DNA from: Haloterrigena gelatinilytica | GTDB taxonomy: Archaea; Halobacteriota; Halobacteria; Halobacteriales; Natrialbaceae | Length of the DNA: 64,000 nucleotides | NCBI RefSeq assembly: GCF_013342145.1 | Contig: NZ_JABUQZ010000001.1 | Span: forward strand, 62,001-126,000 | Reading direction: 5' to 3' | Part shown: one piece after another, positions 14,203 to 28,095 of the stretch | Layout: every line of letters begins with the position of its first letter | Position numbering within the stretch: the first letter of the stretch is position 1 | Translations under genes and position numbers: made by a program | Notes under the pieces: generated by a model | Database searches by the model: none | Told to the model about the DNA's origin: nothing | The model's input: only the letters and a program-made list of their open reading frames with translations

Positions 14203-15462
14203 ATGGTCGCGGACAACCGTCCGTCGATTCCGGAACCCGACTCGACCGGCCCCGAACCCAAGGGCGCCGGCGGCGACCCGCGAGAGCTGAACGACGACGT
14301 GACCGAACCGCCGGGGAAGATCTGGTTCCGCGATCTGGACGAAGCCGTCATCGAGGCCGACCGCTGTATCCAGTGTGCCTCCTGCGTCGCGGCCTGTCCG
14401 TCCGACTCGATCGGCATCGACGAGGCGGAGCACCGCCCCACGCTGGTCAAGATGTGCACCGGCTGCTCGCGCTGCTGGGATTTCTGTCCCCGCAGCGGCC
14501 TGCGGTACGAACGCCACCTCGAGTTGGCCGTCGAGGAGCGCGCCCTCGAGGAGCCCGCGACCTACGCCGCGCGAGCGGACGGCGACGCGGCGGCGGCCGG
14601 ACAGGACGGCGGCGCCGTGACCGCCCTACTGGCCGAACTGATCGAATCCGGCGACCTCGACGGCGCGGTCGTCGCCCGCGAGAGCGATTCGGGTCCGCTG
14701 CGCGGGGAGCCGTTCCTCGCGACCTCCCGCGAGGACCTCCTCGAGGCCGGCGGCAGCATCTACAACCAGACGATGGGGCTGGGACGAATCGACGATCTGC
14801 TGGCCGAGGAGGGACTCGATCCCGCCGAGACGGACCTCGCGCTCGTCGGGACGCCCTGCGTGATCCAGGGCGCGACCGCGCTCGACCGCTACGACCACGA
14901 GCCGGCCGATCCGATCGCGCTGACGGTCGCGCTGATGTGTACCCGGAGCTTCGAGCACGGGCGGCTGGTCTCGCGCCTCGAGCGCTTCGACGTCGATCCG
15001 GAACGAGTCGACAAGCTCGACATCACCGCCGGCGTGCTTTACGCCTTCGACGAGTCCGGCGACGTGTTGCTCGAGGCGGACGTCGACGAGTTCGACGCCG
15101 CGGGCCTGCGGGGCTGTTCGGAGTGTGCGGACTTCGTCGGCGCCGGGGCCGATATCAGCGCCGGCAACGTCGGCACCGAAGACGGTGAGACGACGGTCGT
15201 CGTTCGTACTGAGACCGGCCGCAACGCGTGGGAGAGCGCCGCTGACGGCCTCGAGACGACGGCGATCGACCGACCGGACACGCTCGAGCGACTCGCCGAC
15301 TGGAACCGGCGCCGCGCGGAGTCGACCCTCCCGCGGGCGTACGATCCCGAGGGCTCGGTCGGCATCAGCTACGAAGCGCACCGCGAGGCCTACGACGGCA
15401 CCGATCGGGAACCGCAGCCGCTGAACCCGGCGCGGGTTCACCAGTACGAGGAGTGGTGTTGA
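14203..15462 (+). CDS. FrhB-like F420-dependent oxidoreductase with bis-[4Fe-4S] ferredoxin domain
   Basis: 419 residues. A disordered N-terminus (1-40) is followed by two ferredoxin motifs, CIQCASCVAAC (Cys55/58/61/65) and CTGCSRCWDFC (Cys85/88/91/95). The FrhB/FdhB N-terminal domain follows (GGAVTALLAELIESGDLDGA), then the C-terminal domain with GTPCVIQGA and GCSECADFVGAGADISAGNVG. FrhB subunits bind FAD and F420. ATG directly abuts the TGA of the siroheme gene, so they are one operon. Methanogen Fsr joins the same two modules in one chain, so this protein probably passes F420H2 electrons to the reductase; that link is inference. Confidence 0.87.
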   Translation: MVADNRPSIPEPDSTGPEPKGAGGDPRELNDDVTEPPGKIWFRDLDEAVIEADRCIQCASCVAACPSDSIGIDEAEHRPTLVKMCTGCSRCWDFCPRSGLRYERHLELAVEERALEEPATYAARADGDAAAAGQDGGAVTALLAELIESGDLDGAVVARESDSGPLRGEPFLATSREDLLEAGGSIYNQTMGLGRIDDLLAEEGLDPAETDLALVGTPCVIQGATALDRYDHEPADPIALTVALMCTRSFEHGRLVSRLERFDVDPERVDKLDITAGVLYAFDESGDVLLEADVDEFDAAGLRGCSECADFVGAGADISAGNVGTEDGETTVVVRTETGRNAWESAADGLETTAIDRPDTLERLADWNRRRAESTLPRAYDPEGSVGISYEAHREAYDGTDREPQPLNPARVHQYEEWC

Positions 15463-15694
15463 GTCGCTCGCTCCCTTCGTTCGGGGAGCGGATCGCGCTC
15501 GACCGACGAACGCTCGTCTCGCGACGTGCTCGCTTCTGCTGCCGCCGATTTCGCTCGAGTCGATTTCCCGTTCGGCTCCGTCCGAATCGGTCGGCGAATC
15601 GACTCTCCGTCCCGGCCGGCCGGTCCAGATCACTCTGACGGCCGACCGGTCTGTTTCCCCGTTTCGGCCGGCCGAGCGGCCACCGCGGCCGGGC

Positions 15695-15808
15695 GGGACT
15701 GAAAGGGGCGACCCGCTGGCGCCTGCGCCAGCGGGTCGGGGCTTTCGGATGGGACTGAAAGGGGCTGCGCCGCTCGACCCACTGGACGAGCGGCGCAGGG
15801 GCTTTCGG
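15695..15808. repeat. Two tandem palindromic repeat units with conserved borders and unrelated stems
   Basis: Each unit reads GGGACTGAAAGGGGC, palindrome, GGGGCTTTCGG. Unit 1 (15695-15748) has stem GACCCGCTGGCGC/GCGCCAGCGGGTC with a 2-base centre. Unit 2 (15751-15808) has TGCGCCGCTCG/CGAGCGGCGCA with a 10-base loop. The 15- and 11-base borders are identical while the stems differ completely but stay perfectly paired. It lies in the 407-bp non-coding gap (15463-15869). The rest of that gap has a GCTCCC/GGGAGC hairpin just after the FrhB-like gene and no supportable gene. Confidence 0.85.
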
Positions 15809-15869
15809 TGTTTTCATCCGGCGGGAATTCCGGTGACGGGTTATTACCCGCAGTGTGTAATCCGTTTCC

Positions 15870-16523
15870 ATGACCGGGTTTCGAGCCACAGTCGTCGTCA
15901 AAGACCCCGGGGAGTGCCCGATCGCGGACGTGTCGGCGTCCACCGACGAGCCGATCACCTCCGTGACGCGATCGCGGGCGTCGACCGACGGCACGGTCGT
16001 CGAAGAGTTCGGTATCGCCGCCGACGCCGGGACGGAGTCGATCGACGACGGTACCGCGACCGACCTGACGCCGATTCAGGCGAACGACCGCGAGGAGATC
16101 TACCGGTTCGAACGCGAGAGCGAGGCCGGCTGCGCGTGCGAAATCGTCGAGGGAACCGGGACGCCCGTCTCCTCGGTCCGCGCACAGGACGGCGCGCTCG
16201 AGTTGACGTTTCGAACCCTCGAGCTGACGGAGATCGCCGACATCGTCGACGATCTTCGGGACCGGTTCGAGAGCGTCCTGGTCGAGGAACTCACGCAGGA
16301 CCACGACGACGAGTCGTCGGATCCGGTGCTCGTCGACCGCGACCTCCTGACGACGCGCCAGCGCGAGATCATCGAGACGGCCCACGAAATGGGCTACTTC
16401 GACTACCCGAAAGGCGCGAACGCGACGGACGTCGCAGAGGAACTGGGGATCGCTCGATCGACGTTCACCGAGCATCTGGCCGCCGCCCAGACGAAGCTGC
16501 TCGACGCACTGCTCGAAAAATAA
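15870..16523 (+). CDS. HTH-10 (bacterio-opsin-activator-like) transcription regulator
   Basis: 217 residues. An N-terminal sensor-like domain (1-155) includes FRATVVVKDPGECPIADVS and the cysteine pair CAC at about 88-90. The complete C-terminal HTH follows: LTTRQREIIETAHEMGYFDYPKG, then TDVAEELGIARSTFTEHLAAAQTKLL. This is the intact counterpart of the broken HTH at 767. It follows the palindromic repeats and is monocistronic. The effector is unknown. The conserved cysteines and the upstream siroheme/FrhB unit make a redox or sulfur signal possible, but this is a guess. Confidence 0.9.
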   Translation: MTGFRATVVVKDPGECPIADVSASTDEPITSVTRSRASTDGTVVEEFGIAADAGTESIDDGTATDLTPIQANDREEIYRFERESEAGCACEIVEGTGTPVSSVRAQDGALELTFRTLELTEIADIVDDLRDRFESVLVEELTQDHDDESSDPVLVDRDLLTTRQREIIETAHEMGYFDYPKGANATDVAEELGIARSTFTEHLAAAQTKLLDALLEK

Positions 16524-27810: not shown

Positions 27811-28095
27811 CGACCTTTTACGCTGTCGTTCGAGAGAGCTTCGCTCTCTCGTGATGACGAAAGCGCTTCGCGCCTTTCGAACCACACTCTGGCGATCCGG
27901 CGCCAGCATAGCTGGCGCACGTCTCGCCGACGTTCGGTAAAAGGTCGATCAAAAGCACTCCTCGCTCCCGTTGGTCGCTCGTCGGCCCGAGCGCGGCACC
28001 ACGTGCCGCGCTCGGTGAACGGCATCGTTCGGGTTCTCCGAACCGCTCACGGACGCAAAGCGCCCGTTCGCCTTTCCGCGGCGCGTGGCGCCGCG
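27811..28095. repeat. Array of hairpins downstream of the thermosome gene, partly bracketed by an 11-bp inverted repeat
   Basis: CGACCTTTTAC (27811-27821) and GTAAAAGGTCG (27937-27947) bracket three hairpins: CGAGAGAG/CTCTCTCG (27831-27851), CGAAA-GCGC/GCGC-C-TTTCG (27858-27879) and GCGCCAGC/GCTGGCGC (27900-27918). Three more follow: a 13-bp stem CCGAGCGCGGCAC/GTGCCGCGCTCGG (27987-28015), GTTCGG/CCGAAC (28027-28043) and CGCGGCGC/GCGCCGCG (28077-28095). The whole 456-bp gap to 28265 has no gene. Confidence 0.85.

Follow-up and report, generated by a model that had tools for sequence, protein, structure and literature searches.

Integron attC sites carry conserved end boxes around a variable palindrome, and haloarchaeal type I-B CRISPR repeats end in GTGGGATTGAAGC. 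The REP/BIME, ERIC and NEMIS/Correia elements of bacteria are dispersed intergenic palindromic repeats with highly variable copy number, often located beside promoters and presumably moved in trans (PMC10969869 and background), and the family described below resembles them in all these respects. For the haloarchaeon Haloquadratum walsbyi, the main text of PMC3119063 describes PATEs, which are derived from IS605 ends, and SMRs, which are inverted-repeat elements of about 110 bp. Full inversion of a hairpin loop has been proposed as a footprint of replication template switching (PMC8794818).

Here we analysed two adjacent palindromes in the window, i.e., the whole stretch of 64,000 nucleotides of Haloterrigena gelatinilytica DNA under study. 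The two palindromes are two copies of a haloarchaea-wide intergenic hairpin family, which is apparently undescribed.

Architecture of the window element

Positions 15695-15748 and 15751-15808 of the window hold two head-to-tail units, each composed of GGGACTGAAAGGGGC, a stem and GGGGCTTTCGG. An earlier sequence-only reading had described the borders as identical between the two units over 15 and 11 bases, and both the identity and the coordinates proved right. The features of the locus are as follows.

14203 to 15462, + strand: upstream flank gene, encoding an FrhB/FdhB-type F420 hydrogenase beta-like protein; outside the element
15614 to 15691, + strand: leader made of 26-bp iterons (GGCCGRCCGRKC + 14 nt), three in number, whose first bases are 15614, 15640 and 15666, with a period of exactly 26
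15695 to 15709, + strand: 5' border of unit 1, GGGACTGAAAGGGGC, invariant family-wide
15710 to 15737, + strand: payload hairpin of unit 1, GACCCGCTGGCGC-CT-GCGCCAGCGGGTC, first-position simple class
15738 to 15748, + strand: 3' border of unit 1, GGGGCTTTCGG
15751 to 15765, + strand: 5' border of unit 2, GGGACTGAAAGGGGC
15766 to 15797, + strand: payload hairpin of unit 2, TGCGCCGCTCG-ACCCACTGGA-CGAGCGGCGCA, second-position simple class, 32 nt
15798 to 15808, + strand: 3' border of unit 2, GGGGCTTTCGG
15809 to 15869, + strand: promoter region of the downstream gene, TGTTTTCATCCGGCGGGAATTCCGGTGACGGGTTATTAC..., conserved; outside the element
15870 to 16523, + strand: downstream flank gene, encoding a DmsR_N/HTH_10 regulator; outside the element

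The payload of unit 1 has 28 nt, with 13-bp arms, a closing C-G pair and a 2-nt loop. The units had both been called perfect palindromes, which is true of unit 1 but not of unit 2, whose 11-bp arm encloses an imperfect loop of 10 nt. The element ends 61 bases 5' of the start codon of the DmsR_N/HTH_10 regulator gene. Because the promoter region at 15809-15869 is also present in relatives without the element, it is not part of the element. In most of the Natrialbaceae orthologs that were read (L146-L175), this HTH_10 promoter (window 15809-15850) shows strong conservation of a TTTTCAYCCGGCGGGAATTCCGGTGNCGGGTTATTAC block, which includes a GGAATTCC palindrome and looks like a candidate operator, perhaps an autoregulatory one. 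The 26-bp iterons of the window are the counterpart of the 26-28 bp dyad iterons CGGTGACACANTCCACCG found upstream of Halorussus copies. Only one other perfect inverted repeat of at least 12 bp with a short loop occurs in the window (CCGAGCGCGGCACCACGTGCCGCGCTCGG, 27987-28015), and it lacks the borders of the hairpin family.

Distribution of the family

The 15-base motif GGGRNTGAAAGGGGC was found in 1,859 copies in 174 of the 293 Halobacteriales genomes, covering 59 of 87 genera, and its reversed pattern, used as the control, gave about 0 matches in nearly all 293 genomes. The genome of the window itself has 13 exact copies vs 1 for the reversed control. Copy counts, which are derived from motif searches, range from 0 to 79 per genome across Halobacteriales, and from 0 to 79 inside one genus as well. 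A GTDB-wide scan for border, gap and border yielded 20 stretches, 19 of them haloarchaeal and the twentieth, non-haloarchaeal one devoid of a stem. The same pattern had 0 matches in viral contigs, in which a single border matched in coding-like sequence without a stem. Relatives of the element are present on Haloarcula and Haladaptatus plasmids, and the best plasmid match to an element of Halorussus G131, the genome with the most copies, is the Halorussus salilacus plasmid NZ_CP099994.1. All copies that were placed are intergenic, with none inside a gene according to codon-usage gene prediction, and each locus has one to three units. Several element sites are kept genus-wide and one is kept across at least two genera, which is unlike what would be expected of a very active mobile repeat.

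The search for the borders across genomes, suggested by the sequence-only reading, thus recovered an order-wide family with recurrent stem classes. That reading would have been refuted if the borders were common without stems, but only 17 stemless borders were found vs 1,859 border copies (<1%). The same count led us to reject, as the main story, the insertion of payloads into a pre-existing GAAAGGGGCTTTC target with duplication of GGGGC as the target sequence. Rfam 15, also at lenient thresholds, gave no family at gathering score over any element of the window and its relatives; the sole true Rfam match is a strong one to the S15-Halobacteria ribosomal leader (L015, 659-729), adjoining an element. 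A literature search for the border motif led to papers on unrelated organisms only, and those listed contained no more than a short 10-mer of it.

Fold, payload classes and covariation

The family frame, GGGYGGGAHTGAAAGGGGC ... GGGGCTTTC, is nearly constant, and its hairpin is also represented by GAAAGGGG/GGGGCUUUC. RNA folding of both window units bore out the proposed pairing of GAAAG with CTTTC in the borders. In the unit fold, this helix is followed by an invariant GGG/GGG 3x3 internal loop, beyond which a pair between the final C of the 5' border and the initial G of the 3' border leads into the payload stem. Unit 1 folds at -38.5 kcal/mol (z -4.0) and unit 2 at -39.8 kcal/mol (z -6.1), and both units together have a z of -7.8. 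In some genera, another leader, GAATCGGCTGGGGAGGNGTGAGG..., precedes the identical frame (L024, L025, L082, L083, L126).

Payloads of the simple class, to which the window type belongs, have stems of 23-37 nt. Class A payloads, of about 88-105 nt, are conserved in an internal CTAT/ATAT region, class B payloads are about 78-97 nt long with conserved GACGCAAGCAC...GCGCAGCGAG internal loops, and longer derivatives exist beside these three. Many class B elements (L014, L015, L028, L049, L051, L064) occur as divergent pairs, with 5' borders almost exactly 50 bp apart and a GC-rich, roughly palindromic core common to both. A second frame-like motif, GGGTGGGACTTCCGAAAG-ACACGT-CTTTCGA or near, lies upstream of some elements of Halorussus G101 (L119, L123, L124) and forms a GAAAG/CTTTC hairpin without GGGG tracts. 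In Halorussus G131 (L106, L107, L114, L117), one to three repeats of the 3' arm GTAGCGAGCGGGCGGGGGCTTTCGAGG are found downstream of the hairpin, spaced by ~60 bp and with no 5' arms to match, so that a single 5' arm could have a choice of 3' partners.

In a set of 27 distinct simple units, pairing holds in 99% of stem cells. None of the five frame pairs varies, whereas changes on both sides are seen in nine of ten stem pairs, in support of the selection for pairing that the sequence-only reading had put forward. The covariation score was 0.66, vs 0.16 with shuffled partners and 0.05-0.14 with slid ones; covariation above such controls is what characterizes a structured RNA. Among non-Watson-Crick cells in the outer 12 payload-stem pairs, G.U was more frequent than A.C (33 vs 12 cluster-level events, p = 0.0025), counted after clustering of related stems, with two large stem clusters remaining in the count. 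This preference suggests that the sense strand folds, as RNA or as single-stranded DNA. Because single-stranded DNA likewise has G.T as the more stable mismatch compared with A.C, the wobble asymmetry does not separate the two.

These results bear on one alternative, namely that the elements belong to a host-beneficial family of structured non-coding RNAs, either small RNA genes or cis-acting leaders, whose frame and GGG/GGG loop would bind a protein while the payload varies by subtype, the copies being kept for the regulation of neighbouring genes. The conserved internal loops of classes A and B between covarying flanking helices, the excess of G.U over A.C, and the positions conserved genus-wide or beyond all agree with it. 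However, a copy number that varies from 0 to 79 within the order, and also within one genus, and the persistence of borders without payload argue against it.

Turnover of the stems

At tandem loci of the same genome and genus, the first position usually has a stem of the GAnnCGCTGGCGC type, and the second position mostly one of the TGnnnCGCTCGA (CGCTCGA) type. The two window stems do differ, as the sequence-only reading had said, but calling them completely different was an overstatement, given that both types recur at other tandem loci of its own genome. Simple tandem duplication followed by drift finds a precedent in G049, which has three units with an exact duplication of unit 1, the two copies being 56 bp apart (G062, by unit loss, has one unit). 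Yet the stems differ while their pairing is perfect and the borders are identical, and both stem classes are met again elsewhere, at further loci as well as in further species. The recurrence of the stem classes and the covariation refute duplication plus drift, which the sequence-only reading had already found hard to reconcile with the window and which we regard as extremely improbable.

Stems at fixed sites differ between congeners. One site is occupied in five of six congeners, whose payloads share a similar inner motif but show four different outer stems; G028, the sixth, shows the bare frame GAAAGGGGCTTTC. A second site is split evenly, with a payload in three congeners and the bare frame in the other three. 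The species relations implied by HTH_10 protein identities suggest several independent payload losses at this second site. The bare frame GAAAGGGGCTTTC corresponds to precise deletion of the payload between the GGGGC repeats, seen in some congeners where others retain full payloads. Loops are also found reverse-complemented between orthologs with the arms kept (ACCCACTGGA/TCCAGTGGGT, TGGG/CCCA, AGAAA/TTTCT, CGCTA/TAGCG), and the loop of window unit 2 is inverted in the ortholog of G028. Such inversions would represent template-switch footprints.

Two elements of Halorussus G131 (L259 and L262) are 98-99% identical from CGGGTGGGAC to GGGGCTTTCGAGG, i.e., from border to border, with leaders and tails at background. 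Such near-identical payloads between unrelated leaders and tails indicate that stems have really been swapped. The reciprocal case is provided by L123 and L281, with 92% identity in the leader and 43% in the inner payload, and pairs that share a leader have unrelated payloads. Of the 25 long near-identical segments between G131 elements, 17 cover the payload only, and several begin at the first bases of the frame. The stem swapping envisaged by the sequence-only reading is thus supported in Halorussus, where payload exchange was observed, and not directly at the window locus. As to its mechanism, payloads are exchanged, but much of the stem change resembles replication template switching and slippage more than the work of a dedicated swapping enzyme.

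Insertion sites and genomic context

Five of six congeners carry the window element upstream of the HTH_10 gene; the sixth lacks it, as do all other genera examined, and the promoter sequence of this gene is conserved in all orthologs examined, element present or absent. At the dodecin locus, one of 18 species has an element, and in most of the others an empty 53-158 bp separates the same two genes. The archease-rtcB gap of Halorussus is filled in G131, contains iterons and a decayed hairpin in G101, holds an oppositely oriented element in G156, and has no element in the other Halorussus stretches read. Such insertion polymorphism indicates that elements arise at new sites. No clear target-site duplication was found at the whole-element insertions (archease-rtcB and dodecin loci); GGGGC flanks every payload.

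Insertion polymorphism, both orientations at one locus and the absence of a visible target-site duplication would also be expected if the elements were single-stranded-DNA hairpin transposable elements or their remnants, like IS200/IS605 ends, PATEs and REP, with the 5' GAAAG as a guide pairing with CTTTC at the foot of the hairpin. The guide-hairpin-target layout and the strand-specific wobble bias are in agreement with this explanation, and PATEs are already known in Haloquadratum according to the main text of PMC3119063. However, Y1_Tnp was not detected in Halorussus G101 with its 77 copies, whereas G174, with 0 copies, has 5 Y1 matches. The associated transposase that the sequence-only reading had suggested looking for was found in none of the ten flanking proteins scanned. 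As the stems are free in sequence and length, the family lacks the conserved hairpin sequence that IS200/IS605-type transposases read and that marks IS200/IS605, PATE and REP elements. We consider this alternative quite unlikely, and a Y1 transposase as the present-day mover was rejected for want of a correlation with copy number.

The flanking genes encode unrelated housekeeping proteins (RtcB, archease, dodecin, CinA, iPGM and similar). In tandem gene contexts of Halorussus, the element is sense in 24 cases and antisense in 8 (p = 0.007); gene-context tallies rest on our own codon-usage gene prediction and include some related loci, the Halorussus counts being the cleaner ones. Convergent contexts are rare, and the number of upstream genes directed into the element is close to the chance expectation. 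The sense bias and the rarity of convergent sites speak against a terminator and point to a sense-direction effect. An intrinsic terminator was rejected, since no hairpin with a T run enriched 3' of genes was seen. No consistent TATA-like promoter was found ahead of the units, and numerous copies either precede a leaderless promoter or are antisense to their neighbours.

A regulatory site acting at the DNA level, such as a cruciform, operator, insulator or transcription terminator, would be consistent with the frequent position upstream of promoters, the leader of dyad iterons and the strong hairpins. However, the terminator is ruled out by the readthrough and convergent-site results, relatives without the element have a fully conserved HTH_10 promoter, the GGGG tracts on the same strand on both sides form no dyad, and the wobble bias is strand-specific, and we regard such a site as very unlikely. 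The sense bias in tandem contexts favours the non-coding RNA family introduced above, whereas the unrelated housekeeping neighbours, the lack of a consistent promoter, and the many copies antisense to neighbours or upstream of a leaderless promoter disfavour it. Taken together, that family is unlikely, though a real possibility.

Discussion

The explanation we favour, and believe to be probably correct, is that the leader and the two tandem units of the window make up a single copy of a dispersed haloarchaeal hairpin family in which the payload is constrained to pair and not in its sequence. Other copies would supply replacement payload hairpins, through gene conversion or cassette transfer acting at the constant borders, and template switching and slippage would remodel the hairpins further. 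Together with selection for intact borders and pairing, such replacement and remodelling could explain the two different stems of the window. The element may, with less certainty, act as a folded sense strand, most likely as a putative RNA that would start near GGGTGGGAC. Also less certainly, it may spread as a non-autonomous repeat depending on factors in trans, with copies tolerated or useful next to promoters. In short, the element is probably a dispersed, non-autonomous hairpin functioning as a folded single strand.

A different possibility is a haloarchaea-specific cassette system, in which a putative factor recognizing GGGYGGGAHTGAAAGGGGC/GGGGCTTTC would install, remove and exchange payloads among numerous genomic sites, each payload being transcribed as a structured RNA. 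We think this rather unlikely. Such a system, if real, would add a new class to the archaeal mobile RNA/DNA elements, and a dedicated factor exchanging payloads would imply a new mobile-element mechanism in archaea. The repeat family is order-wide, reaches ~80 border copies in some genomes, and is absent from the RNA families and papers searched. The combination of a fixed frame with a free stem makes it a natural experiment on the origin and upkeep of perfect hairpins, and dozens of orthologous and paralogous stems with compensatory change, inversion, loss and transfer make the shares of selection and template switching measurable.

With integron attC sites the family has in common the conserved ends around a variable palindrome, but no integrase or cassette array was seen, the elements are dispersed, and the frame itself is non-palindromic. 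The 3' end of the unit, GGGTGGGAYTGAAAG, resembles the GTGGGATTGAAGC end of type I-B CRISPR repeats. A CRISPR repeat was nevertheless rejected, since there is no repeat-spacer array, the interiors are palindromes and the units come in ones to threes; Rfam CRISPR matches were weak and sub-threshold. A MITE is not supported either, since the outer stem arms, which would be the terminal inverted repeats, are the most variable part. REP/BIME, ERIC and NEMIS/Correia elements keep the sequence of their palindrome, whereas the haloarchaeal family keeps the frame and leaves the palindrome free, and REP has a RAYT/Y1 partner, whereas no RAYT/Y1 correlation was found here. The cases of multi-base compensatory change and full loop inversion attributed to template switching in RNA hairpins (Monttinen and Loytynoja, PMC8794818) are similar to ours, but those are from rRNA, in which loop inversions are rare, whereas in the haloarchaeal family inversions are frequent within one genus. 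Like the PATEs and SMRs of H. walsbyi, as described in the main text of PMC3119063, the elements are haloarchaeal, transposase-free and intergenic, with palindromes near the ends, no target duplication and repeat-mediated deletion of the core; the frame motif does not appear in that main text, and the comparison is one of descriptions. The family is therefore best placed among dispersed hairpin repeats and kept apart from REP, PATE, MITE and CRISPR, provisionally so for PATEs and SMRs, from which it is separated by description.
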